In this document: piece by piece, positions 12,320 through 31,491 of the stretch
Numbering within the stretch: position 1 is the first letter of the stretch
Layout of the letters: each line of letters starts with the position of its first letter
DNA from: Streptosporangium sp. NBC_01495
GTDB lineage: Bacteria; Actinomycetota; Actinomycetes; Streptosporangiales; Streptosporangiaceae
Assembly: GCF_036250735.1 (NCBI RefSeq)
Contig: NZ_CP109430.1
Location: 5,828,001 to 5,892,000 of the forward strand
DNA: 64,000 nt
Reading direction: 5' to 3'
Program-made: the position numbers and the translations under genes
Notes under the pieces: generated by a model
The model's input: the letters and a program-made list of their open reading frames with translations, nothing else
Databases searched by the model: none
Told to the model about the DNA's origin: nothing

Positions 12320-12801
12320 GGCTGCAAGTATGCGAGCCCTCTCCACGCCTTGCCACGGAACAGGGCGAAGATCCTCGCCCTGCTCGCCCGGGGAACCGCC
12401 CGGCGGTCAGGAGCCGTAGGCGGAGAGATAGGTGACCATCGAGAAGTGGCCGACCTGGGTGGTGCCCTTGTGGCAAATGACGTACCGGATGTTCAAGGCT
12501 CTTGATAACCCGCGGCCGGGCTCTTGAGAAGACCCAATCTCGCGAGGCTTCCCGACTCCGGTAATTCTCCCGAGTCGCGGAACGGCGGGCGCGATCCCGC
12601 CCGCCCCGAGAACGCTCCCGCGCAGGTGAGCGCACTACCGGAGGGTCCACGCCGGTACGCGCAGCAGCCCATATCACGACGTTATGGAATTTTGTGAGGT
12701 ATTCCTCCGCCCCTCTCGGTGTCAACTTTAGGTGGCCCGGACTCTTAGGGCTCCTTGCATCCCTCCTACCCCCCCAGGGACATCGAGAGGAGTCACCCCG
12801 C
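12320..12801. other. gene-poor interval upstream of M4 protease
   Basis: No convincing gene is seen. A short minus-strand frame near 12410-12500 ends NIRYVICHKGTTQVG and then HFSMVTYLSAYGS before a stop, but it has no clear start or homology. The right half presumably carries the promoter and leader of the protease; GAGAGGAG at 12784-12791 is its ribosome-binding site. Confidence 0.5.
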
Positions 12802-14409
12802 GTGAATCCGAAGGTCAAGCTTGGCGCCGTGGCCGTACTGGCCGTCGCCGCCATGATCACCCCCACGGCGGTGAACGCCGCCACCCCGGCGGACAACGCC
12901 GCAGCCCGCACCGCGTCAGCCGAGCCGCCGGTGTTCGCACCGCCGGACGCGGAATCGCGCAACCGTGCGGTCGCCACCGCCAACACGACCCTCGCCGCCA
13001 GGTCCGAAGCCGTCCTCAAGGGACGGAACGAGAAGTTCACCCTGGCCAGGAACATCGCCGGTGCCTACGGCCTGCAGTACCTGACCTACGCGCGCACCTA
13101 CCGTGGGCTGCCTGTCTACGGCGGTGACGTGGTCGTCTCCACCGACAGGGCCGGAGAGCTCGTCGGGACCGTGAGCTCGGGCCAGCAGGCCAGGATCACG
13201 ATCGACGTCGCGAGCAAGGTGGACGCCGCCACCGCGGCCGCCACCGCCCGCGCGCAGTTGCCCGTCGTGGAGACCGTGGCCACGCCCAAGCTGGTCGTGC
13301 ACGCGACCACCACCACGCCCAAGCTGGCCTGGGAGGTGGTCGTCAACGGCGCCACCGCCGAGGCCCCGAGCGTCCTGCACGTCTTCGTGGACGCCCTCGA
13401 CGGATCGATCGTCGACTCCTACGACGACGTGCACGCCGGAACCGGCAACAGCCACTACAACGGCAACCCGGTGACCATCCAGACCTCGGGTTCGGGCAGC
13501 TCGTACTCGATGACCGACACCACCCGCCCCGGCCTGCGCTGCGGCGGCCAGAACGGCACCGCCTACACCGGGACCGACGACTCCTGGGGTAACGGCTCGG
13601 GCACCAACCTGGAGACCGCCTGCGTCGACGTGCTGTACGCGGCCCAGACGGAATGGAACATGCTCAGCGGCTGGCTGGGCCGCAACGGGTTCAACGGCTC
13701 CGGCGGCGCCTTCCCCGCCCGGGTCGGCCTGACCGCTGTCAACGCCTACTGGAACGGCAGCTACACCAGCTTCGGGCGCAACAGCGCGAACACCAAGCAG
13801 GTCACCCCGATGGACGTGGTCGGCCACGAGTACGGCCACGCCATCTTCCAGACCTCCGGCAGCGGCGGCGGAGGCAGCGGCAACGAGTCCGGCGGCCTGA
13901 ACGAGTCGACCGGCGACATCTTCGGCGCGCTGACCGAGCACTACGCCAACCAGCCCGCCGCCCTCGACCCGCCGGACTACCTGGTGGGCGAGGAGGTCAA
14001 CCTGACCGGCGCGGGCGAGATCCGCAACATGTACAACCCCTCGGCCAAGGGACACCCGAACTGCTACAGCTCGTCCATCCCCTCCACCCCGGTGCACGCG
14101 GCGGCCGGGCCGCAGAACCACTGGTTCTACCTGCTCTCCGAGGGCACCAACCCGGTGGGCAAGCCGGCCAGCTCCGTCTGCTCGGGCCCGACGAGCCTGA
14201 CCGGTATCGGCATCCAGAAGGCCGGCCGCATCTACATGGCCGGGCTGAACACCAAGACCGCCCCGTGGACGCACGCGAAGGCGCGGAGGGCCACCGTGGC
14301 CGCCGCCAAGTCACTCTTCCCGAGCGGCTGCGTCGAGGTCAACGCGGTCAAGGCCGCCTGGAGCGCGGTGAACGTCCCGGCCACGAGCGGCGAGGTGTCG
14401 TGCCCGTGA
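12802..14409 (+). CDS. secreted M4-family (thermolysin-like) metalloprotease
   Basis: The 535-residue precursor starts at GTG 12802 with a signal peptide (KVKLGAVAVLAVAAMITPTAVNA, cleavage after NAA). A FTP-like propeptide follows (about residues 60-200, LTYARTYRGLPVYGGDVVVS), then the peptidase domain. The zinc motif HEYGH is at residues 342-346, the third ligand glutamate in GGLNESTGDIFG near residue 368, and the late catalytic histidine in HAAAGPQNHWFYLL. Paired cysteines suit an extracellular enzyme. The protein is a neutral endopeptidase acting outside the cell. GAGAGGAG upstream supports the start, and a 14-bp terminator hairpin follows at 14483. Confidence 0.93.
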   Translation: MNPKVKLGAVAVLAVAAMITPTAVNAATPADNAAARTASAEPPVFAPPDAESRNRAVATANTTLAARSEAVLKGRNEKFTLARNIAGAYGLQYLTYARTYRGLPVYGGDVVVSTDRAGELVGTVSSGQQARITIDVASKVDAATAAATARAQLPVVETVATPKLVVHATTTTPKLAWEVVVNGATAEAPSVLHVFVDALDGSIVDSYDDVHAGTGNSHYNGNPVTIQTSGSGSSYSMTDTTRPGLRCGGQNGTAYTGTDDSWGNGSGTNLETACVDVLYAAQTEWNMLSGWLGRNGFNGSGGAFPARVGLTAVNAYWNGSYTSFGRNSANTKQVTPMDVVGHEYGHAIFQTSGSGGGGSGNESGGLNESTGDIFGALTEHYANQPAALDPPDYLVGEEVNLTGAGEIRNMYNPSAKGHPNCYSSSIPSTPVHAAAGPQNHWFYLLSEGTNPVGKPASSVCSGPTSLTGIGIQKAGRIYMAGLNTKTAPWTHAKARRATVAAAKSLFPSGCVEVNAVKAAWSAVNVPATSGEVSCP

Positions 14410-16321: not shown

Positions 16322-17701
16322 TCAGGCGGCCAGCTCACTGTTCAGGTGATCGCGGAACTCGCGAACCATCACGCTGTCCTCGTACGGCTCAAGCTGTCCG
16401 GCGAACTGGCGGGCAAGCTCCACCGTGCGGGCGGAAGTCAGCGTTTTGGTCGCCGGGATCGCGGCTCGGGCGGAATCGAGAGCCTGCTCCAGCTCCCCCA
16501 TACCGAGGTAGGCCTCGGCGGCATGCATCTGGTTGAACTGGGCGGAGCGAGGAAGGCGCGCGCTGAACTCGGCCACGACCTCTTCCGCACAGGCCGCTGC
16601 TCGCTGATGGTCACCCAGCAGACTCCAACAGCGCCCCGCCTGGGCCTTCAACTCCACCGCCTCAAACCTGTCGACCCACGTCGGATCGCGATCGGTGATT
16701 CCTTGAGCATGAGCGCGCTCGGCCTCGACAAGCAGGCGCTCGATCTGCCCGGCGCTGTGCCGATCCTGGGTCTCGGCCGGTCTGGCCTGCACGGCCATTG
16801 CCCTGGCCTCCCCGGCCAGCACCAACGCCATGACTCGCGGAGGTGCCTGCGCCCGGCGGGCCGTGTCGACGGCGGCTCGGGCCAGCCACACGGCCCAGGC
16901 CCCCTGCTCCAGGTGAATGGCCTGGCGGGTCAGCGTCGCCAGCACCCAGGCGCCGGTCAGCGGGTCGTCACCGCTCTTGGCCAGCCGCAGCGCCTGCCCG
17001 AAGTGCTGCTGTGCCTGGCCGTGCCGGTTCAAATCGAAGGCCGTCCAGCCCGCCAGCCAGGTCATCCCGGCCGCCGCCGTCATCAGCTCGGAGCCAACCC
17101 GGTCGTCGTAGCGGCCCCGCAGCAACGGCGTCACACTCTCGTTCAGGTATTTGACCACCACCGGGCGCACCAGCCCGGCCCCGAACCGCTGGTCTATCTG
17201 GCCGAACGCCTTCTGTGCCTCGACGATCCGCGCCACGTCGGCGAGACCCACCACACGCCCCGCACCCTCCTGCTGGGCGGCCGACGCGATCGGAGTGCCG
17301 TAGTTCCAGGAGACCAGCCACTCCCCCAGGGCTCCGGGCACGAACGGCAGCGAGGCCAGCAGGTGACGCCGGGACGGATCCATCTCCAACCTCCACAGAA
17401 GCGCGGCCGACCTCACGGTAGCCGCCGGTGAGCCGTCGCCACAGCCCGCGATCGGCCACGATGATGTCTCCCCGTAGGACCAGCCGTCTATCCACCGCTC
17501 GACCTCGACCGCCTCGACCTCGAACACGGCGGCGATCCGCGGCCGGTAGCAGGCACGCACCCCCTGCTCGCCGCGCTCCCACCGCGCCCAGGTCGTCGGC
17601 GTCACCCCGAGAGCCTCCGCCGCCGCCTCCTGGCTCATCCCCCGCCGCACCCGCGCCCTCACCAGCTCAGGACGCTCCTTACGACTCCGTGACCCACCCA
17701 T
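16322..17701 (-). CDS. XRE-family regulator with long TPR-like C-terminal domain
   Basis: The 459-residue protein carries an HTH at residues 12-42 (LVRARVRRGMSQEAAAEALG, TTWARWERGEQ), followed by a long alpha-helical region that resembles TPR sensory domains (e.g. LKAQAGRCWSLLGDHQRAAA, AAEAYLGMGELEQALDSA). This is a common actinobacterial architecture in which peptide or metabolite binding to the helical part controls DNA binding. It is divergent from the small HATPase gene at 17911, a pairing of HTH regulator and anti-sigma-type ATPase frequent in actinomycetes. Confidence 0.85.
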   Translation of the reverse strand: MGGSRSRKERPELVRARVRRGMSQEAAAEALGVTPTTWARWERGEQGVRACYRPRIAAVFEVEAVEVERWIDGWSYGETSSWPIAGCGDGSPAATVRSAALLWRLEMDPSRRHLLASLPFVPGALGEWLVSWNYGTPIASAAQQEGAGRVVGLADVARIVEAQKAFGQIDQRFGAGLVRPVVVKYLNESVTPLLRGRYDDRVGSELMTAAAGMTWLAGWTAFDLNRHGQAQQHFGQALRLAKSGDDPLTGAWVLATLTRQAIHLEQGAWAVWLARAAVDTARRAQAPPRVMALVLAGEARAMAVQARPAETQDRHSAGQIERLLVEAERAHAQGITDRDPTWVDRFEAVELKAQAGRCWSLLGDHQRAAACAEEVVAEFSARLPRSAQFNQMHAAEAYLGMGELEQALDSARAAIPATKTLTSARTVELARQFAGQLEPYEDSVMVREFRDHLNSELAA

Positions 17702-17910
17702 GCCACTCTCCTTTGGTAGCCGAATGACTACCCATTGTGATTAAGGAGAGTCGCCGCGCACCACCCCACCCCGGGAAACGACCAGGGATCGACCATCCTC
17801 GCCACGCCGATCTTCATTCCGTCCCGAACGAGCAGGCTTCGACGTTCATCCCACTCCGCCCATCGCGTTTCCTGCTGTCCACGGCTACCGACAGCGAACG
17901 GAGTGTGCTC

Positions 17911-18522
17911 ATGCGGCCATCCGGCGGCATCCCCCATGGTGCTCACGGCCACCCCGGCGAGGATCTGACCTTCCCCGCGAATCACGACCGAAGAGGCACC
18001 GGCTCAGCGGGACAGGACGCCGACATGGTGAGATGTGGCGACGTTCACGCGCTGGTGAAGGTCCTTCAGCCGGGCTCGGCCTCGCGCCGCGCCCGCGCCG
18101 TGGTCCGGGAGGTGCTCCGGGAAGCCGGTCTGGACGACGACGCCATCGCCGACGCGGAGACCATCGTGGCGGAACTGGCCGCCAACGCCGAGAGGCACGC
18201 CCGTCCCCCGTACGAGCTGCGCGTCCTCAGCCTGGACGGCGTCCCCGCCTGGTGCGAGGTCGTCGACGGCGACCCAGACCTCCACGAGGTCCGCATCATT
18301 CTCGGCCTCCTCCACTCGGTGGAGGAGATCGGCCTGCCCCTGCTCGCTGAGAACGGTCGCGGCCTGCTCCTGGTCCACCGGCTCTCCCAAGGGCGGTGCC
18401 ATGTCCACCCCACCACGACCCACACCACCGGCACCCCCGGCAAGGCCGTCACCTTCGCCCTCCCCCGCCTGACCTTCCCCGCTCTCCCCGGCTCCGGTAG
18501 TGATGGGGATCCGTCCGCCTGA
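17911..18522 (+). CDS. small HATPase_c (anti-sigma/RsbW-like) ATP-binding protein
   Basis: A 203-residue protein from ATG 17911 (CGGAG 8 bp upstream). Residues 60-180 resemble a GHKL ATPase: ADAETIVAELAANAERHA is the N-box region, EVVDGDPDLHEV the D-box, and LPLLAENGRGLLLVHRLSQG the GxGL segment. Proteins of this kind bind regulators or sigma factors and sit beside XRE/DUF397 genes in actinomycetes. It may act with the divergent XRE regulator. The D-box reads DGDPDLHE rather than the usual DxGxG, so ATP binding may be altered. Confidence 0.78.
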   Translation: MRPSGGIPHGAHGHPGEDLTFPANHDRRGTGSAGQDADMVRCGDVHALVKVLQPGSASRRARAVVREVLREAGLDDDAIADAETIVAELAANAERHARPPYELRVLSLDGVPAWCEVVDGDPDLHEVRIILGLLHSVEEIGLPLLAENGRGLLLVHRLSQGRCHVHPTTTHTTGTPGKAVTFALPRLTFPALPGSGSDGDPSA

Positions 18523-18584
18523 AGGTTCAGGCCCCTCGATCACGCTAACTCCTGGTGGCCCTGAAAACAGAAAGGAGCCTGTCG

Positions 18585-18794
18585 ATGAAGCGCCCTATCG
18601 CTGCCCTGACCCTTGTTTCGGCCCTTGCCCTGAGCGGGTGCACAGGCGATGAGACCTTCGGCAACCCCGCTACGGCCCAGATCGCCCAGGGGAATCACGA
18701 AGCACTCGACGTCTCGATTCTCCGGGTCGCGGCGTCCGACTTCCAGGCCCTGCCCTCACCGGAGGCACTGGCCCGGCCTTACAGGGTGCCCTGA
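18585..18794 (+). CDS. small lipoprotein, 69 residues
   Basis: ATG 18585 follows a good ribosome-binding site (AAAGGAG, 18571-18577). The product has a classic lipoprotein signal (MKRPIAALTLVSALALSGC) with lipobox LSGC, then a 50-residue tail with no recognised domain. It should be anchored outside the membrane. The next exported protein starts 28 bp later and is probably in the same operon. Confidence 0.7.
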   Translation: MKRPIAALTLVSALALSGCTGDETFGNPATAQIAQGNHEALDVSILRVAASDFQALPSPEALARPYRVP

Positions 18795-18822
18795 CGGTCC
18801 TGGGGACCTCGATAATCTTCGG

Positions 18823-19683
18823 ATGCTGCGATTGCTGCGATTATTGGTGACGCTCCTGACGGTGACTGTGCTTGTCGGCGGCGACCACCTCCCCAGACGG
18901 CTCACATTCGATGATTACGCCGCCCGTGCCGTCTGGACCTGGCAGGCCGGCGGCGCGGCGGAGATCTGGCGCAACGGCTTCGTCCCGACGGAGGACCTGA
19001 GCCAGATGCGGCAGGACGTGGAGAAGCAGATCTCCAGTGATGAGGAGTACGGCTTCGCCGTGGCCGGACCGCTCCCCGTAACCCCGAAAGAGGCGCGAAT
19101 CCGCTGGGATGACGGCTCCACCATGCGGGTCCCCGTGATCGGTGCACGCCAGGCGCTGATCGCATTGTCCCCCTTCGAGATGGAGGCCTCCGCTCAGGAC
19201 GATCGGGCGTACAAGATGACCGCCGCCACCTTCACGACCATGCGCCTGCGGACCCTGCGCGGCATGGCCACCGTCCCGGCGTGGCGGTTGTCCTTCTCGA
19301 ACCTGCCCGGCCCGATCGACCACGTCGCGGTCGACCGGGCCACGCTCGGCACCGTCGAGGACGCCGTCGGTGACCACCTGGCCCCCGATGTCAGAGGCTT
19401 CGAGGTGCTCGACGAGCGCACACTGCGGGTGAGCTACGACTACGGCGTCTGCGACAGCCGAGAGACGCCGACCGTCCACCTCCGGACCGACGAGCGGCCC
19501 GACGTCGTGGTCCTCGGGATCAAAGTTCGCAAGCGCATCGGTAACGGCTTGTGCGCGGGCGTCGGCGCATCCGGTGAGGGCGTCGTCCGGCTCCAGGAGC
19601 CGCTGGGCAGCCGGGTGGTGCTGGATGCGAAGAGCCGGCTTCCCATCTGCCTCCATTGGCCGGGCCCTTGCCGCGCCGGGTGA
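18823..19683 (+). CDS. hypothetical exported or membrane-anchored protein
   Basis: A 286-residue protein from ATG 18823 with a hydrophobic N-terminus (MLRLLRLLVTLLTVTVLVGG) that is either a signal peptide or anchor. The remainder is soluble, with three to four cysteines in the C-terminal third (YDYGVCDSRE, GNGLCAGVG, LPICLHWPGPC), suggesting extracellular disulfides. I do not recognise the family. It follows the small lipoprotein by 28 bp, so the two may work together on the cell surface. Confidence 0.65.
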   Translation: MLRLLRLLVTLLTVTVLVGGDHLPRRLTFDDYAARAVWTWQAGGAAEIWRNGFVPTEDLSQMRQDVEKQISSDEEYGFAVAGPLPVTPKEARIRWDDGSTMRVPVIGARQALIALSPFEMEASAQDDRAYKMTAATFTTMRLRTLRGMATVPAWRLSFSNLPGPIDHVAVDRATLGTVEDAVGDHLAPDVRGFEVLDERTLRVSYDYGVCDSRETPTVHLRTDERPDVVVLGIKVRKRIGNGLCAGVGASGEGVVRLQEPLGSRVVLDAKSRLPICLHWPGPCRAG

Positions 19684-19739
19684 CCTGGGGCGCGTCCTGG
19701 CACTGACCGCCGCCATCGGCGGCCTCCGGGTCTCGGGCC

Positions 19740-19880
19740 GTGGGTAAGACTGGTGCACCAGGTACACACGATCGCTATCGCCGGACAGCGCATCGGCATC
19801 GGCCACGCCGGAGCGACATTGATCGTGGTCGTCGTCTTGCTGACGCCTTCTGGTTGGCGACGGCCGTGGTTCAGGCGCCA
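19740..19880 (-). pseudogene. ParA-family ATPase remnant, frameshifted
   Basis: Reading the minus strand across three frames gives TTAVANQK, then GVSKTTTTINVA, then GVADADALSGDSDRVYLV. Joined, they match the N-terminal deviant Walker A of ParA/Soj ATPases (AVANQKGGVGKTTTTINLAAALAD..VLLVD). No single frame encodes it and the rest of the gene is absent, so it is a decayed fragment, probably of plasmid or integrative-element origin. Confidence 0.6.
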
Positions 19881-20236
19881 ACACCAGAGGAATGGGGACT
19901 GTTCATGCGCGCACCGTAGCGCCAGACCGCACAACGTGTCTCCGGTGGGACTGTACGGTTTTCGGCTCTGGCTCACTTTCGGCGGTGACCGAGCGTGGTC
20001 ACAGGTGATGAGAGCGCGCTGGGGACGAATCAGCCGGTCAAAAGGGTGCCGTGGCGCGGTCCGGCGAACAGGCGCACGGACGATCGCGCGGTCCTGCGGG
20101 CGTCTGGTGAGGAACCCGCCCAACTCCACGACGTCAGCTTGAAGCGCACGTTCCCTTACCACCGGAAGTGAGCCAGAGCCGTTAACTGGACAGACCCGGC
20201 GGGCTCGTCGAACGCGGGCCGGAGTGGCTCGCCCGC

Positions 20237-20626
20237 TTACGCCGGGCTGGCGTGGGCGGCCAGGATGCGCCACCCGTGCTCGTTCGTGTGAACCCACGTC
20301 CGCGTGTAGCTCATCCGTCCGGCGAATGGCGTTCCGGCGAAGCTGCCTTCCAGCGTGCCGAGGAAGCAGGTGACGCCGGTGTTCCCCACAACGAGCACGG
20401 TGAGGTCTTCCTGGAGGAGTTTCGTCAGGACCAGTGTTCGTGAGCGGTGATTGTGGAGATCGAGCTGCTTGGCATCCGGGTGGCACTGGTTGTCCGGCGG
20501 TCCGGTGAAGACGAGCCGCTCATCGAGCAGCCGGTCCAGCTCTTCGACGTCTCCGGCGAGCTGTGCCGCCTGCAGGCGCTGTTCGGCCTTGGCCAGTTCG
20601 TCAATGAGGGTGGTGTGGTCGGCCAT
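20237..20626 (-). CDS. DUF4440/SnoaL-like (NTF2-fold) protein
   Basis: The 129-residue protein begins MADHTTLIDELAKAEQRLQA and shows the DUF4440 pattern: a long first helix, LDRLLDERLVFTGPP, a central strand LTVLVVGNTGVTCFLGTLEG and the end MSYTRTWVHTNEHGWRILAAH. The NTF2-like fold is used by small enzymes and ligand-binding proteins; no specific function can be assigned. It lies among decayed fragments and appears intact. Confidence 0.82.
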   Translation of the reverse strand: MADHTTLIDELAKAEQRLQAAQLAGDVEELDRLLDERLVFTGPPDNQCHPDAKQLDLHNHRSRTLVLTKLLQEDLTVLVVGNTGVTCFLGTLEGSFAGTPFAGRMSYTRTWVHTNEHGWRILAAHASPA

Positions 20627-20740
20627 GAGGAACCCTCTCCAGCGATCGATCCCGCGCGAAGTGAACAGAGTAGTGCTTTAAGGGGTGGACCGCAGCCCGG
20701 GTCGGCGCTCATAGGAAACGTCGTGGCTTAACAGTGTTGC

Positions 20741-20806
20741 TAGAACGTACGGCGAGGGCGGTCTTGCCGTAGGCCGGCGGTGCCGACGATCAGCGCCAGG
20801 GTCATC
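20741..20806 (-). pseudogene. P-loop ATPase fragment, frameshifted
   Basis: A minus-strand ORF reads MTLALIVGTAGL and then loses the motif. Skipping one base restores GTAGYGKTALAVRS, a clear Walker A. Only about 20 codons remain, so it is a fragment of a P-loop NTPase broken by a single-base insertion and truncated. Confidence 0.45.
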
Positions 20807-21184
20807 TCGGGACCCCTCCCCAACGAGGGAGTCGAGCTCCAATCGGCGCGGCGCCCACGTCGGCGAGCCTGTGTCGCGGTCCCGCGAGCGCGTCGGCGAC
20901 CCGTCCGGAACGGCACAAAGCCAGACGTTCGCGCCCGCACGTACCCCGAGGTTGAGCACCTATAGGAAGCTGGACCTCTCGGCGACAACACCGTTGCCCT
21001 TGCTCTTGTTATCGATCAAGGTCGCCTGCATGGCCTTCTCCGCGTTCGACGCTGAGTTCGATGCAGACCGGGTTGGTTTGAGCCTCGGCATCCAGGCCAA
21101 CTCGACCTACTTGAAAGAAGAGATCATCGCTCTCCGACCTGCAGGAAGAGTCCTCCGGCCCTAGATAAACACCCGATGTCTGGT
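20807..21184. other. gene-poor interval
   Basis: No convincing gene. A plus-strand frame near 21013-21164 reads KVACMAFSAFDAEFDADRVG and ends at a TAG, but it has no ribosome-binding site or recognised homology and may be another decayed fragment. Confidence 0.4.
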
Positions 21185-21325
21185 TCACCCGAACCCCGCG
21201 CGGAGCGGATCACCGGGAGGCGGCACCGTGCTGCGCTGGTCGTAGCCCGTGGCGGGGACGTCCCATACCAGGATGCGCCAGTCAGTGCCGTACTCCTGAT
21301 ACTCCTCATCCAAGAAGTACTCCAC
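21185..21325 (-). CDS. 46-residue ORF coupled to HExTHNYQ proteins
   Basis: A GTG at 21325 directly follows the TGA of the upstream 551-residue gene with zero spacing, giving a 46-residue acidic, aromatic peptide (VEYFLDEEYQEYGTDWRILV, then WDVPATGYDQ and a proline-rich end). No family is recognised. The position at the end of the two-metallopeptidase unit suggests translation by termination-reinitiation; it could be an inhibitor, an adaptor or a degraded tail of a longer gene. Confidence 0.45.
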   Translation of the reverse strand: MEYFLDEEYQEYGTDWRILVWDVPATGYDQRSTVPPPGDPLRAGFG

Positions 21326-22981
21326 TCAGGTCGGGATGGTGGCCAGGCCGCGGCGCGCGATCAGCTCGCCGAGCACCCGCCGCGTGCGATCGACCTCCGT
21401 CAGGGCCGCACGCTCTCTCTCCTTGGCCTGCCGGTAGAGGGCGTAGGTGCGTTCGCACGCCTCCGCCTCTTCGGACAGTCCCGCCTCACGCAGTTTCCAC
21501 ACCATCGCCGCGTGCGCGAGGTCCGCCGTGCTCTCGGCGTGGTCGCTGACCGCGGCGGCCTCCCCGGCCAGCCAGGCCAGGTTCAAGTAGTACGGCGCCT
21601 CTTTGATCCGGTTGATCTCCGCCTCGACGCGCTCCGTCTCCCGCGACTCGGGGACGGATCCGCCCAGGTCCCGGATCACGGACGCGGCGAGGTCGGTGAA
21701 GAGGGCGGCGTGGTCCGCGTCGAGGAACCGGGCCGAGAGCCGATCCCAGTGGGCCGCGAGGCCTCGCGCGCGGATCTCCGCGCCCAGCTCGGCCAGCGCG
21801 TCACCGAGCGCGTCGTCGCTCAGCGCCGGGTCGGTGACCAGAGGAATGATCCTGTTTCGGTCGACGGACGTGGCACCCGGATCACTGCCGAGGCCCGCCG
21901 CCCGCTCGACCAGGTGAAGACGCCGCTCCGGCTCGGAGGGACGGGGCTCCACGTCCGGCAGGTACCGTCGCGCCTGCTCCATCAACCGGTAGATCGCCGA
22001 CGACGAACTCCCGTTCATGGCCGCGTGCAGTTCCTCCCGTATCCGGCCGGCCTCCGGCGTCTCACCCACCTGTTCCAGCGCCTCGTACACCGCCGCGCCC
22101 GCCATGAGGGCCTGGTCGAGGAAGTAGACCTGTGCGTCGTCTCCCACCGCCATCGCGTGCAGTTCGACCGGTTGCGACAGGTAGGACTCCCGGTCACCGC
22201 CGTCGCCGTCGTTCAGGTACGCGGCGAAGTTGCCCTTGAACGCCCCGGCCTGCTTCTCCCTGGGGTCACCGGCCAGCCGTCCCGCGTCCAGATCGGCGAC
22301 CAGGCTGTACTGGTAGTTGTGCGTGCCCTCGTGCAGCACGGTGTTCACCGCTTCGTGGAATTCCTCCCAGCCGGGCGCCTTCGTGATGAGTTCGAGCACT
22401 CTGTCGGCCTCGAAGTACTGGCCCATGCTGTTGCCGGGGATGGGCTCCGGCCCGTCCCCCAGGAGCTCCACCGTGGGCATCCGGTCTCGGCCCATCCCCA
22501 ATACCTGGCACTGGACGTCGAGGATCGAGCGGACGATGTCCCCGCGTTCCTTCGTCGAGGCGTTCCGCCAGCGGCGCGGCGCGTCCGGCAGCTGCTCGGC
22601 GACCGCCTCCAAGACCTGCAACTGCCTGAGCCCGTCGTCCTCCGCGAAGCCGGGGTCGAGCGTCTTCATACTCCGGTAGAGGCTGCCCAGCTGCGCCGGG
22701 TACCGGCCGACGGGGTCGGGTTCCGACGCCATCGAGCTCAGCAGGGAGAACTTCCGGTCGAGGGACAGGGTGTGCAACCCCTCCTGCCCACGGTCGATGA
22801 AGACGGCCGCCTCCTCCTGCGTCTGCGGGCCGCGCGTCCGGACGCCGCCCGGGCGGGGCGTGGCATCGGGATTCGCCTCCCCCGGGCGGATCTGGGGTGC
22901 CGGAGAGCGCAGCTTCTCGCGCTTGGTCGTCTGCAGGAGGGCGGGAGCCGACTGCGATCTCGGCCTTCGGGGGGTGGTCAT
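21326..22981 (-). CDS. putative zinc metallopeptidase with HEGTHNYQ motif
   Basis: The 551-residue protein begins at ATG 22981 with a basic, proline-rich disordered tail of about 70 residues (MTTPRRPRSQSAPALLQTTK). A central domain carries HEGTH at 217-221 followed by NYQ, then DAGRLAGDPREKQAGAFKGN and YLSQPVELHAMAVG, whose E273 is the likely third zinc ligand. This HExxH..E pattern is that of gluzincin-type peptidases; HExTHxxQ also resembles the HELTHVVQQ signature of the DUF4157 domain found in contractile-injection-system cargo. The C-terminal 200 residues are helical. No signal peptide. The ATG overlaps the stop of the upstream paralogue (ATGA). Confidence 0.75.
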   Translation of the reverse strand: MTTPRRPRSQSAPALLQTTKREKLRSPAPQIRPGEANPDATPRPGGVRTRGPQTQEEAAVFIDRGQEGLHTLSLDRKFSLLSSMASEPDPVGRYPAQLGSLYRSMKTLDPGFAEDDGLRQLQVLEAVAEQLPDAPRRWRNASTKERGDIVRSILDVQCQVLGMGRDRMPTVELLGDGPEPIPGNSMGQYFEADRVLELITKAPGWEEFHEAVNTVLHEGTHNYQYSLVADLDAGRLAGDPREKQAGAFKGNFAAYLNDGDGGDRESYLSQPVELHAMAVGDDAQVYFLDQALMAGAAVYEALEQVGETPEAGRIREELHAAMNGSSSSAIYRLMEQARRYLPDVEPRPSEPERRLHLVERAAGLGSDPGATSVDRNRIIPLVTDPALSDDALGDALAELGAEIRARGLAAHWDRLSARFLDADHAALFTDLAASVIRDLGGSVPESRETERVEAEINRIKEAPYYLNLAWLAGEAAAVSDHAESTADLAHAAMVWKLREAGLSEEAEACERTYALYRQAKERERAALTEVDRTRRVLGELIARRGLATIPT

Positions 22982-25113
22982 CGCGGGTCCTCGCTCTTCG
23001 CGTTCGCGCCGCGCGCGGCCGCGCGCACCGCCTCGGCCTGCGATTGTGCCAATACCTCGGCCCTGGCCGCCCCAGCGGCGCGGGTCGTCGCGGCGAGGTA
23101 CGCGATCGACCCGTGGGCGAGGTCCGCGTACGCGTGCGCGGCCCGGGCCGCGGCGACCGCAGCGTCGCGGAACAGCTGCGCCTCGGCCGACGCGTCCGCC
23201 GCCTCCGCCTCGTTCGCGGCGGCCTCGGCGTGGGTGATGATCCTGCGGGCGGCGGCGGTGGCGGCCAGCGCCGCGGCCTGCTCGGCGCCATCGGCGAGCT
23301 CGGTGGCCGAGGCCGCCTGAGCCCGCGCGGCCGCGACCGCCGACTGGACGGCCTCGTCCATGACCCTCTGGCCAAGGTCTCGCGCGCGGGCCACCGCCGT
23401 GGCCGCGTCCTCGGCGGCGGCCCGCGCTGCCTTGGCGGCATCGCCCGCGAGGCCGTCCTGCCGCTCCGCGGCCAGCCTGAGCCGCTGGAAGGCGCCGCTC
23501 TCGGCGCCATGGGCCTGGGTATCGAACATCCGCCTGAGCGGGCCCTCCCGATGGTCGGAGTCGAGCAGGGCGCGGACCGGCGCGAGCTCCTGATCCGTGA
23601 AACCGGGCCGCTCGTCGAGCCACTGCAGGATCTCGACCTTGAAGCGCTCGACGGGGTTCTTCGCCGCCAGGTACCGGGCGGTGAGGTCCATCGCGGTGAC
23701 CATCGGGGCCGCGACCTCGCCTCCGAGCGCCGCGCCGAACCGCCGCAGCATCGCCTCGGGCGGACGGGGGGAGGCGGCGAGCGCCACCTCGAAGAGTGCC
23801 CGTCCCTCCTGCTGGAGGGCGGCGGTGAACGCGTACCTGGCCTCCAGCCCGGCCTTTATCGCCTGCCGTTCCAGGGGCTGGTTCAGGTACGCCAGGTGGT
23901 CGCCGCCGCCGGGCCGGGTGCGCACGTACCCGCGGCCGATGTTGACCGCGAACAGCTCGGCCTGCAGGTACCGCGGGTCCGCCGGATCGAGCCGGCCGGC
24001 CCGCAGCTCGCCTATCAGCCAGCCCTGGTAGTTGTGCGTGTTCTCGTGCACGAGGGCCTCGACGACCAGCGGGAACGACTCCCACATCGGGGTCCGGGTG
24101 TTCATCTCGATCGTCAGGCGGGCGTCGACGAACGCCGCCAGATCGGTCACGGACCGCTCGCCGTCGCCGACGTCGACGGAACCCTCGCCGAGCACGATCC
24201 GGGGCAGGCGCCCCAGGATGCCCAGCCGCTCGCAGTGGAGCCGCACCGCCTTGTTCAGGACGCCGGCGCGTTCCTCCGCCGGCATCCCCGGCCATCGGCG
24301 GGTGACTCCGGAGAACTCCGCCACCAGGGCGGCGCGTGCCTGAGCGCGCAGCGGGTCGTCGACCTTCTCGAACTCCGGGTCGAGCGGCGTGTCTTGCAGG
24401 ATCCGTACGCGCGCGGCGTGCGCGGCCTCGGATACGGGCAGGCCCCCGCCGAGCAGGTCCGTGAGCAGGCCACGCCGCTCAGCGAGCGTGAGCTCCCCCT
24501 CCCGCTGTGCCCCGGCGATAGCGGCCTCCCGCCGGGCGGGTGCCCCGGCGGCGGCCTTCTCCAGCACCGCCGCGATCATCTGGGCGTCCTCAACGCTCGT
24601 CGCCGACTTCATGAACTTCGCGACGGACGGGATGTCCAGCGGCCGATCGGCGAGCACCGCCGGCAGCGCCTCGGCCACGTCGAGCATCGCGTAGTACCGC
24701 TCCGACTCCATGAGCCGGAGCTGGTAGCCGTCGGAACCGAGGTCGGGGGGCTCGCGGAACCTCTCCGACTGCCCGGGGAAGGCCTCCTTCAGGGGGACCA
24801 GCCGGCCCTCCTCCAGTGCCTGCGCGAGGTCCCACAGCATCGAGGCCAGCGACAGGGCCGGCGTGGCGTCCCGCGGAACATCCTGGGAGGCGGCGGACGG
24901 GGCCGGCAGATCGCGCTTCGACTTGACCCAGTCCGGCGCGGCCGGGGGAACACCGTTCGTGCGGTCGTCCGCACCCGTCGCACCGTCCGCGCCGTCCGCA
25001 CCGTCCGCACTCGTCGCGCCGGTCAACGGTGCGCGCGGGCGTACGACCGGTTTCGTGTCGGGAGGCGCGGGGGCGAGTGTGCGTGGCGAGGTCGCCCGGG
25101 GATTCTTCTTCAT
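22978..25113 (-). CDS. putative zinc metallopeptidase with HENTHNYQ motif and Ala-rich coiled tail
   Basis: This 711-residue protein starts at ATG 25113 with a disordered N-terminus (KKNPRATSPRTLAPAPPDTK, then an ADGADGADG run). Its middle carries HENTH at 356-360 followed by NYQ, RAGRLDPADPRYLQAELFAVN and YLNQPLERQAIKAG (E415, likely third ligand), aligning with the next gene in the operon. The last 180 residues are an alanine-rich helical region (ARAAAEDAATAVARARDLGQ) that should form a long coiled coil or helical rod. There is no signal peptide. It overlaps its paralogue by 4 nt. The two proteins are clearly related only around the HExTHNYQ core. Function unknown. Confidence 0.75.
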   Translation of the reverse strand: MKKNPRATSPRTLAPAPPDTKPVVRPRAPLTGATSADGADGADGATGADDRTNGVPPAAPDWVKSKRDLPAPSAASQDVPRDATPALSLASMLWDLAQALEEGRLVPLKEAFPGQSERFREPPDLGSDGYQLRLMESERYYAMLDVAEALPAVLADRPLDIPSVAKFMKSATSVEDAQMIAAVLEKAAAGAPARREAAIAGAQREGELTLAERRGLLTDLLGGGLPVSEAAHAARVRILQDTPLDPEFEKVDDPLRAQARAALVAEFSGVTRRWPGMPAEERAGVLNKAVRLHCERLGILGRLPRIVLGEGSVDVGDGERSVTDLAAFVDARLTIEMNTRTPMWESFPLVVEALVHENTHNYQGWLIGELRAGRLDPADPRYLQAELFAVNIGRGYVRTRPGGGDHLAYLNQPLERQAIKAGLEARYAFTAALQQEGRALFEVALAASPRPPEAMLRRFGAALGGEVAAPMVTAMDLTARYLAAKNPVERFKVEILQWLDERPGFTDQELAPVRALLDSDHREGPLRRMFDTQAHGAESGAFQRLRLAAERQDGLAGDAAKAARAAAEDAATAVARARDLGQRVMDEAVQSAVAAARAQAASATELADGAEQAAALAATAAARRIITHAEAAANEAEAADASAEAQLFRDAAVAAARAAHAYADLAHGSIAYLAATTRAAGAARAEVLAQSQAEAVRAAARGANAKSEDPR

Positions 25114-25337
25114 TCGGCCTCATATGACGTGGAACGTTCCCTGATCATCCGCCCCAAGATAGGTGACACCCAACATGCCGTACAGACCCGTTATCGGTGG
25201 CTCGTCCGCACCCATTGTCGGGGCCAGAGCTCGATCACGGATCTTGATTGCGTCAGGGGCAGAGCGTCGTTGGGGCAAGCCTGGCCGACGGCTCGGGTCG
25301 TCCGGGTGTGCCCACTCCTGAACAGTCCGTCTGCGGC

Positions 25338-25652
25338 CTACGGAAGGTCATCCGCGTCCGGGATCCACCGCGCCCGTATCTGTTGAGCGGCGTCCAGGGC
25401 AGCCTGTCCTGCTACCTTGCCCGACTCGTCGTCGGTGGTGTCCAGCACGACATAGATCGCGGCTTCGACGGTCTTCCACTCCTGCTCGAGTTGCCGCCGG
25501 GTCAGCCCGTCGTGCCACTCCAGCTCCCGGTAGATCCGGCGGATCTGGCGCATCAGGTCCTCGTAGGTCGCTGCTGCTGAGTCCGGTGTCTCCTCCATGG
25601 CTCCCACGTTGCCACCCTCTGTTGCGCCCTGCTGGTCAGATCTCGTCGTCAT
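25338..25652 (-). CDS. small hypothetical protein beginning inside Tn3 remnant
   Basis: A frame of up to 104 residues (MTTRSDQQGATEGGNVGAME) from ATG 25652; a shorter start at ATG 25598 (MEETPDSAAATYEDLMRQIR) leaves 86 residues. It is mostly helical and charged (REWHD-like YRELEWHDGLTRRQLEQEWK, then KVAGQAALDAAQQIRARW). I do not recognise a family. The longer start overlaps the last codons of the Tn3 transposase tail, so the shorter one is safer. Confidence 0.55.
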   Translation of the reverse strand: MTTRSDQQGATEGGNVGAMEETPDSAAATYEDLMRQIRRIYRELEWHDGLTRRQLEQEWKTVEAAIYVVLDTTDDESGKVAGQAALDAAQQIRARWIPDADDLP

Positions 25653-25860
25653 CCTCCGCTGCGTCCGGGTCGCGTAGGTCGCGGACGGCGCCGGACGCGA
25701 GGTCGGGCAGGGCGAAGGTGTAGGTGCCGTGGACGCCGAGGTGGGAGTAGTGGACGAACGGCGAGAGCCGGGCCATGTCCTCTTCCCGGACGGGGTAGTC
25801 CTGGGCTTTGAGCTGGTGGACGGCGGCATCGAGGTAGACGGTCGTCCAGAGGAGCGCGGT
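25636..25860 (-). pseudogene. Tn3-family transposase C-terminal remnant
   Basis: The minus strand reads TALLWTTVYLDAAVHQLKAQ, DYPVREEDMARLSPFVHYSH, LGVHGTYTFALPDLASG and VRDLRDPDAAEDDDEI before a TGA at 25636. This is the characteristic end of Tn3-family (DDE_Tnp_Tn3) transposases. A TGA lies in frame just upstream (about 25876), and the rest of the transposase and inverted repeats are not visible, so only a tail survives. Confidence 0.85.
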
Positions 25861-26048
25861 CGGCGCGGTCGCTCGTCACGCAGCGGCCGCCGGGCGGGGG
25901 GTGGCTCGGGTGGCAGCCGCGTCGCGCTGCATCCGCAGGTAAGCACGAGCGGCTTGGTGGTCGGCGCGGCCGCGGTGATCGCGCGGGTAGCGGGCCTGGT
26001 TGGGGTTCAGCCAAGGTGAGCCCAAAAGCCGCAATACATGATCGTTAA

Positions 26049-26249
26049 GTGGCTTCCAGGCGACGGCCCATCTGGAGTGGGTGGACGGCCTCGGCGACCC
26101 GGCGTGTCTCCGGAGCGTGGGCCGCGCTCAGCGCCGCCTGCCACCACCACGGCTACGAGCTCAGCCCGACAGCCGGTGAACTGCGGGCCCTTTACAACGA
26201 GGTGCGTCTCCTCACCGAACACCTCGGCCCGGTCTCTCCGCCGACCTGA
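26049..26249 (+). CDS. possible 66-residue ORF of unknown nature
   Basis: From GTG 26049 the frame ends GAWAALSAACHHHGYELSPT, AGELRALYNEVRLLTEHLGP and a stop. The last 40 residues look protein-like (amphipathic helix), but the first 25 (SRRRPIWSGWTASATRRV) do not, while another frame there reads TAHLEWVDGLGDP. It may be a frameshifted fragment near the Tn3 tail. Low confidence. Confidence 0.3.
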   Translation: MASRRRPIWSGWTASATRRVSGAWAALSAACHHHGYELSPTAGELRALYNEVRLLTEHLGPVSPPT

Positions 26250-26264
26250 CCGGGCCGCCCGGCG

Positions 26265-26549
26265 TCAGGCGGGCGCGTACGTGAGGCAGTCGATGTCTTG
26301 CTGCGCGTAGCCGACGACGATGCCGGAGGCCTGGCACTCGTACTGGACGTTGTGCTGGCAGTTGGCCATCTTGCAGGCGCCGACGCGGCCGGTGGCGGCC
26401 GGGTCGCCGCCCTTCGACGGGACCTTGAAGAAGGTCTCGCACTCCGCGTGGCTGCTGTTGCCGACCGTGATGGCCAGGGCGTGGCAGATGTGTTCCGTGT
26501 TGTACGCGCACGCCTCGACCTGGCACTCGTTGACCGCGGGCATCTCCAT
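26265..26549 (-). CDS. DUF1540 cysteine-rich protein
   Basis: The 94-residue protein contains two DUF1540 repeats: CQVEACAYNTEHICHALAIT (residues 9-28, with the following VGN) and CKMANCQHNVQYECQASGIV (residues 59-78). Each has the C-x4-C-x7-C pattern expected of a small metal- or disulfide-stabilised knuckle; further cysteines lie at ECETF and IDCLTY. The family is widespread in Gram-positives with no defined role. ATG 26549 is well placed; the gene stands alone. Confidence 0.85.
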   Translation of the reverse strand: MEMPAVNECQVEACAYNTEHICHALAITVGNSSHAECETFFKVPSKGGDPAATGRVGACKMANCQHNVQYECQASGIVVGYAQQDIDCLTYAPA

Positions 26550-27077
26550 GGCTGAACTCTCCTAGGGCTCGGGCCGGTCCCGGGCTCGACGAGCCATCGC
26601 CGGGGCCATCACCCATTGGTTTGTCTGGTTGTCACCGCTTGGCAGCGTCGGCACATCCGGCCGGCGCTCTGGTCGTCGAGCTGCTCACGCGCCGTGTCCC
26701 GATCACGATCTTCGATTCGCGGTCGGACGGACGCGGCCTGTGCCCGCAGCACGGGCACAGGACTACCCGTCTAAATACCGCGCCGGAATCGCCTTCACGC
26801 TCATGCCGATCTCAAGGCTTCTCCAAGAGCGGCCTCCCCGGACGGCCGGGTGCTCTCCGGGAACCGGGAGACGCCGGGACGGGCCGCGACCGCCCCGGCC
26901 ACTGCGGCGACAGCCATCGGCCGGCACCACCGTACGGTCCCCGGTGGTCACGGCCGTGGCCGCCGTACGAGCGCGGAGGTCACCGGCCGAGACCCCCGCG
27001 CGGACGCCAAGGGGCGCCGACCGAAGCGCCGTACGGGCGCCGGAGTCACCGGCCGAGGCGTCGTACGGGCGCCGGGG
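26550..27077. other. gene-poor interval with degenerate direct repeats
   Basis: No gene is supported. The right half (26932-27089) contains about four degenerate copies of GTACGGGCGCCGGGGTCA followed by (C/T)(C/T)GGCCGAG-like sequence, at 26932, 26965, 27031 and 27063. The last copy includes the stop codon (27078) of the beta-helix gene. Confidence 0.6.
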
Positions 27078-30133: not shown

Positions 30134-31327
30134 CTACCCCACGGAGAGGAGGTCGCGTTGAGGTTCACGGTTCGCAGGCCCGCCCAACGGCAAGCCTCCC
30201 CGCGCAGCCACCGCGTGCCCCGCGGCGGTATCTCGAATGTTCCGCGCCGCGTTCACATCGGCGTTGACCCGATGCCCGCAGCCCACACACGAGAAGAGCG
30301 CTTGGCTCTCGCGACTCTCCCCGGCACGGTGCCCACAGGCGTTACAGGTCTGCGACGTGAAACGCGGATCGATCCTCCGAACCCGGCCCGGCGCCTTCTG
30401 CTCCAACCGGACCACGAGCCGACCCCACCCGGCGGCGAGAATACCCCGGTTCAAGCCCGCCTTCTGCCGAACATTACGGCCCGGCACCTCAAGGGTGCCC
30501 TTAGCCGACCGGGTCATCGCGGAGACCTTCAACTCCTCGACCGCGATCACCTCGAAACGGCGCGCCAGATCGGTCGAGGTCTTCTCCACCCAGTCCTTAC
30601 GCCGATCAGCCTCACGAGCCTTCAAACGGGCGATGGCGAGCTTCACCTTCGCCCGCCGCTTCGACCCCCGCTTGGCTCGCGCGAGCTTGCGCCGCAGCCT
30701 CAGCAACCGTTTCCTCTCGGTCTCACGCAGGGCGGGCACGCTCAGCAACTCACCCGTGGACAGCGCCGCGCTGACCGTCACCCCTCGATCCACTCCGACG
30801 ACCCCACCCGCACCCGGCGCGGGGATCGGCTCGGGAATCGCGGCGAACGCGACATGCCAGCGGCCCGCCGTATCCCGGGTGACCCGGTAGGATTTCGCCT
30901 GCGCGACGGGGCGCGACCAGCGAAACCGCACCCACCCCACCTTGGGGATCTTCACCTCGCCGACATTGCGCGACACCCGCCGCACATCACCGGGCTTGAC
31001 CGCGACGATCCGGAAACCCTCGTTGCGTCCCCGGCCGCGCCAGGTGGGCTTGCGGTGGGTTTTACCGAAGAAGTTCGCCATCGCCTGGTGAAAATCCTTG
31101 AGCGCCTGCTGCTGCACCGTCACCGACCCGGCACCCAACCACGCGAACGCGGCCCGCGCCTCGGTGAGCTGACGACACTGCTCGGCGAACCCCGGCGCCG
31201 ACCCCCGGCCCGGCCTCCAGTGAGTGTGCTGCTCCAGCGCGAGATTCCACACAAACCGGGCATGCCCGCAATGCTCCAGCAACACCCGCTCCTGAGCGGG
31301 CGAGGGCTGAAGCCGAAAACGCGACAC
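30134..31327 (-). CDS. tnpB: TnpB-family RNA-guided nuclease (OrfB)
   Basis: About 397 residues from GTG 31327 (VSRFRLQPSPAQERVLLEHC); the open frame extends further upstream through the left-end hairpin but is not homologous there. RuvC-like catalytic residues are seen as D in GVDRGVTVSAALSTG, E in IAVEELKVSAM and D in NADVNAARNIRDT, and a zinc knuckle reads CNACGH..CVGCGH. The family cleaves DNA guided by omegaRNA at a TAM and helps retain the transposon. All residues appear intact, so the enzyme may be active. Confidence 0.92.
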   Translation of the reverse strand: MSRFRLQPSPAQERVLLEHCGHARFVWNLALEQHTHWRPGRGSAPGFAEQCRQLTEARAAFAWLGAGSVTVQQQALKDFHQAMANFFGKTHRKPTWRGRGRNEGFRIVAVKPGDVRRVSRNVGEVKIPKVGWVRFRWSRPVAQAKSYRVTRDTAGRWHVAFAAIPEPIPAPGAGGVVGVDRGVTVSAALSTGELLSVPALRETERKRLLRLRRKLARAKRGSKRRAKVKLAIARLKAREADRRKDWVEKTSTDLARRFEVIAVEELKVSAMTRSAKGTLEVPGRNVRQKAGLNRGILAAGWGRLVVRLEQKAPGRVRRIDPRFTSQTCNACGHRAGESRESQALFSCVGCGHRVNADVNAARNIRDTAAGHAVAARGGLPLGGPANREPQRDLLSVG

Positions 31328-31491
31328 GCCGACCAACCTACCGACACCCCCCGACAAAACCGGGAGACCACCATGCTCGACCGTTCCGCGACTCCTCCCC
31401 GCCCTGAAGGACGGGACATCCACTCTGCAAGGACTTGGTGACCGCGCTCACCTCCGGGCGGTCGAGGGTCCCGCCGCGGCCGCCCGGGTGT

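Follow-up and report, generated by a model that had tools for sequence, protein, structure and literature searches.

We analysed two adjacent genes, here called A and B, on the minus strand of a 64,000-nucleotide stretch of Streptosporangium sp. NBC_01495 (contig NZ_CP109430.1, positions 5,828,001 to 5,892,000). The contig, from genome G000, is 10.7 Mb long; the stretch itself is referred to below as the window, and all window positions count from its first letter. Genes A and B encode zincin-like proteins of 711 and 551 residues. The sequence bore out the initial annotation of two minus-strand open reading frames (ORFs) of these lengths that overlap by the four bases ATGA. This overlap contains both the stop codon of A and the start codon of B, GAGG is present upstream of both starts, and translation of the two genes is probably coupled. 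Both reading frames are intact, with coding-like guanine-cytosine content at third positions (A: 0.92; B: 0.90). The pair and its motifs are as follows.

22978–25113, minus: gene A, 711 residues; disordered N-terminus 1–85, helical region 86–243, zincin-like core ~244–487, Ala-rich helical tail ~551–711 (low confidence)
24913–24924, minus: KSKR of A, N-terminal short motif found family-wide
24025–24048, minus: HENTHNYQ of A (356–363; H356, E357, H360), proposed zinc ligands and catalytic Glu
23869–23880, minus: QPLE of A (E415), proposed third zinc ligand, from the alignment
22978–22981, minus: four-base ATGA overlap between A and B
21326–22981, minus: gene B, 551 residues; disordered N-terminus 1–50, zincin-like core ~104–345, helical C-terminus
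22919–22930, minus: TTKR of B, N-terminal short motif found family-wide
22310–22333, minus: HEGTHNYQ of B (217–224; H217, E218, H221), from the alignment
22163–22174, minus: QPVE of B (E273), proposed third zinc ligand, from the alignment

An unnamed zincin-like family

Comparison of A with B revealed 31% identity over 249 residues (E 1e-27). The HE(N/G)THNYQ core and the H/H/E candidate ligands were found as annotated: H356, H360 and E415 of A and H217, H221 and E273 of B were invariant in four-row alignments, and the H, E, H, Q, QP, E, A and G positions were also invariant in a 12-row alignment with distant relatives, HExxH being kept in 12/12 sequences and QPxE in 12/12. In the AlphaFold models, the proposed third-ligand Glu falls within predicted helices (A: 413–447; B: 271–305). 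With HExxH in its usual catalytic role, zinc would be held by both His of HExTHNYQ together with the QPxE Glu, and the Glu of HExxH would activate the water that cuts a protein substrate.

Neither A nor B matched any Pfam, NCBIfam or PHROG model at E ≤5. A third paralogue of 529 residues was found on the same chromosome, 2.7 Mb away, and its sequence and the cores of A and B matched no Pfam family at E ≤10. Two paralogous proteins with HExxH plus Glu, long disordered N-termini and a place outside the families scanned were thus far supported. A family member was present in only 3/341 Streptosporangiaceae genomes searched and in one of the 16 genomes of the genus; the other two carriers, Nonomuraea spiralis (G230) and Streptosporangiaceae bacterium NEAU-GS5 (G135), have one homologue each. 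A contig search repeated with five query sequences returned the same two homologues, an earlier contig scan having found none; the genome searches score only part of the first-look candidates, and misses are possible. Core identity within the family was 25–42%. In a tree of 12 cores rooted at the midpoint, A grouped with the third paralogue and the two homologues to the exclusion of B (support 96/95), so that, if this root is right, the A/B pair is not a recent local duplication.

The AlphaFold models agreed with the annotated disordered N-termini and helical C-termini, with a predicted local distance difference test (pLDDT) score below 50 for residues 1–89 of A and 1–55 of B. The description of these N-termini as basic holds for B (17 K+R and 11 D+E in the first 110 residues) but not for A (14 and 14). 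Disorder was predicted for A and B and is presumed for the other three family proteins. All five carry [KT][ST]K[RQ] within the N-terminal 110 residues (KSKR, TTKR, KTKR, KTKQ and KTKR), a result reached by 0 of 20,000 shuffles for a motif that was picked after inspection; the NEAU-GS5 copy depends on the start codon chosen. This K[ST]K[RQ]-like motif may serve as a signal for docking or loading. No membrane-like stretch was seen in any of the five proteins (19-residue hydropathy ≤1.32), and A and B have no recognisable signal peptide. In the N. spiralis protein, the first 60 residues include a patch of modest hydrophobicity.

The predicted cores weakly resembled solved zincins, and the VIA-align rows included PprI and a DNA–protein crosslink (DPC)-repair protease; we take the structure 6mdw to be SprT-like. 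M78 IrrE/PprI (PF06114) and SprT-like peptidases share the zincin core arrangement in these rows; they differ in that A and B gave no Pfam match, no PDB sequence match and no significant Foldseek match. A structure search of BFVD returned no match at E 0.001.

Relatives were absent from plasmids (tblastn with A, the N. spiralis homologue, the third paralogue and the distant protein L018 described below), from phages (with A as the only query) and from viral contigs. Megablast of window 17500–27000 against plasmids and PADLOC with A, B and L018 also gave no match. The Tn3 and ParA remnants of the initial annotation were not recovered in the 30 window frames scanned with Pfam, which cover part of the window and of which two overlap in one frame. 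In a tblastn comparison of 16 window genes with L013–L015, where the third paralogue and the two homologues lie, an ABC transporter was the one match besides the family genes. At L013:1–8262, a RamC-like lanthipeptide cluster that includes an S9 peptidase and ABC transporters precedes the N. spiralis member by ~200 bases.

A conserved four-gene module with the same core

A class-wide search of 394 genomes yielded one usable distant protein, L018 (E 5e-6), and profile comparison with it raised the link to 96.3%. Against nine proteins of one actinobacterial genus, g107, hhalign linked the core at 97.8% over 144 columns with a score of 92.7, whereas 100 shuffles that kept HExxHxxQ and its neighbouring columns scored ≤29.0. 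Using profile A8, which includes the L018 sequence from G418 itself, we detected the core in 28/294 genomes of that taxonomic family, all of them in g107. The g107 proteins share HExxHxxQ...QPxE..A with A and B. The claim that the two genes are conserved together held in part: the window genome alone among the 341 has more than one match, but adjacent tandem pairs with the same core occur in 7/28 positive g107 genomes.

The g107 zincins differ from A and B in their WXG-bearing N-terminus and in their company. W-x-G, read like the lipobox by the usual conventions, was found at about residue 46–56 in 8/9 of them, and WXG models matched none of the four scanned. A module of four genes (a small partner, the zincin, a DUF4919-like gene and a WD40 lipoprotein) was present in 10/10 loci (L067–L076, nine genomes); the models of the four genes had been built from loci later matched (4/10 for the partner, 7/10 for the other three), with L070, L072 and L076 used in none. 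One example is L069:5084–9585, and the DUF4919-like protein has ~165 residues. The DUF4919 match was over cut-off in one of the two proteins scanned, and the WD40 match was over cut-off in the one scanned. EccB was matched in 7/7 g107 genomes tested (of the nine carrying module loci), over the curated cut-off in one. From these sequences, the module looks like a type VII secretion effector set, with weak evidence for export.

No counterpart of the WXG-bearing N-terminus, the small partner or the DUF4919-like gene was found at E ≤1 in the window or in L013–L017. The sole companion match near the Streptosporangiaceae genes was a weak one to the lipoprotein model (window 18549–18791, E 0.0012). 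EccB was present in the window genome and in N. spiralis and was not found in NEAU-GS5.

The Pfam putative metallopeptidase family DUF6782 (PF20573) covers the HExxH region of the g107 relatives and was over cut-off in 1/5 of those scanned (29.7 vs 27 bits); it matched neither A, B, the third paralogue nor either homologue. SprT-like and M78 matches to the g107 core were below cut-off. No description of the zincin family or of the g107 module was found in the open-licence literature, among the matches listed. We consider the g107 module a better discovery than the window pair itself.

Two further distant relatives, in G1026 (E 1.6e-19) and G1291 (E 2e-5), came from a search of 396 genomes across the phylum. 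The G1026 protein (L082:4164–10244) reads HEGRHAFQ...YWDQPVEADAR and adjoins a PP2C gene (over cut-off). The same locus has genes with below-cut-off VWA-like and kinase-like matches, and a P-loop gene was picked out there by eye. The weaker G1291 relative (L079:949–2217) has HEARHCEQ, a below-cut-off peptidoglycan-binding match and a stretch LQQQAGNAAV, presumably typical of injection-system cargo.

Candidate functions

The zincin-like family is real and unnamed and includes a coupled gene pair, while the mini-ORF beside B and a link to injection systems, two misleading features of the earlier finding, do not survive. Zinc-protease domains recur as bacterial weapons and regulators, and the core of A and B lies outside the curated families scanned. 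We read A and B as zinc metallopeptidases that most likely act as endopeptidases and as effectors of the conflict type, with a probability of about 0.47. The helical region and the disordered N-terminal arm with its K[ST]K[RQ]-like motif would dock the enzyme to a carrier or a target. The effector role is favoured because the core is common to the WXG-bearing module proteins of g107 and because the family is rare and divergent. Pfam contains models of the Tox-MPTase and ALF type, and A and B match no Pfam model. The Tox-MPTase1-5 and ALF-like polymorphic-toxin peptidases resemble A and B in being HExxH zincins; they occur in delivered proteins, of which some have WXG leaders, as described in PMC3482391.

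Several results weigh against the effector role. The EspC and WXG100 matches of the g107 small partner appeared in one of three proteins scanned and were below cut-off, and EccB was never beside the module in the seven genomes tested; both lower its odds. Because no signal peptide was seen and the three carrier genomes share none of the export machines tested, the main rival is a cytoplasmic protease of the IrrE/ImmA or SprT type, regulatory or for quality control, which would be tethered by its arm to a nucleic acid or protein partner and never exported. The lack of a hydrophobic segment, the presence of PprI and the DPC-repair protease among the fold rows, the SprT-like and M78 matches of the g107 core and the position of a distant relative within a PP2C, VWA-like and kinase-like cluster all agree with such a protease. 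However, a family in so few genomes with such low core identity would be unusual for a housekeeping role, and no adjacent cleavable regulator was recognised; we regard this intracellular role as possible but somewhat doubtful.

The joining of the orphan pair to the conserved g107 module poses a directly testable question, namely whether the module is an effector set of the type VII kind that includes its own neutralising partner. In a broader and rather unlikely version, the core would define a new superfamily of actinobacterial effector proteases, delivered in two formats. The type VII format of g107 would comprise the WXG-bearing leader, the small partner, the DUF4919-like protein as immunity or chaperone and the WD40 lipoprotein. 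In the orphan format of the Streptosporangiaceae, the disordered N-terminus with K[ST]K[RQ] would mark the protein for loading into an as yet unrecognised export route.

The rarity of the family and the gene scrap that abuts the stop of B could indicate catalytically dead zincin scaffolds or decaying genes; this is improbable, as the catalytic residues are unchanged throughout the 12 aligned sequences and both frames are intact with coding-like third positions.

The initial annotation had compared the core with DUF4157 (eCIS_core, PF13699), and A and B could accordingly be imagined as DUF4157-like cargo or as a releasing peptidase of an extracellular contractile injection system. HExxHxxQ with a downstream Glu is indeed a signature of the PVC metallopeptidase, as given in PMC3482391. 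Matches to the contractile sheath (PF04984) were obtained in 4/18 genomes, including N. spiralis and NEAU-GS5, and these two encode DUF4157 matches as well. However, the resemblance did not extend beyond the HExxHxxQ motif: hhalign against a DUF4157 profile built from only five sequences gave 2.7% over 14 columns, and the score (22.8) was no better than that of shuffled profiles (median 22.2). The Glu lies 55–64 residues after the first His in the A/B family and, on a by-eye reading, apparently nearer in DUF4157 sequences. The window genome, with its three family genes, has no sheath or DUF4157 match, and for this genome the injection reading is disfavoured and very unlikely.

The mini-ORF and neighbouring genes

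A 46-codon ORF next to B had been annotated as a coupled gene.

21185–21325, minus: 46-codon mini-ORF, a remnant of an unrelated gene that abuts the stop of B; not a functional part of the pair
21190–21291, minus: stretch with 94–96% identity to internal sequence of a 190-codon gene of a congener (G014:C3, a 224-kb contig)

The mini-ORF is a scrap of an unrelated gene, judging from its DNA: 93/97 bases of window 21195–21291 match the interior of the congener gene (L023, 6168–6740), which itself has no Pfam match. Although its start at the base directly after the stop of B might suggest an immunity or partner peptide of the pair, this is hardly credible for such a copied fragment with no ribosome-binding site upstream, no second copy in its own genome and no significant match (best E 2.0) in any of the three loci that carry the third paralogue or a homologue.

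Elsewhere in the window, an M4 thermolysin-like metallopeptidase is encoded at 12694–14409 on the plus strand, and its Pfam family is unlike anything that A or B matches. A transposase of the IS605/TnpB type lies 5 kb from the gene pair, at 30134–31423 on the minus strand.

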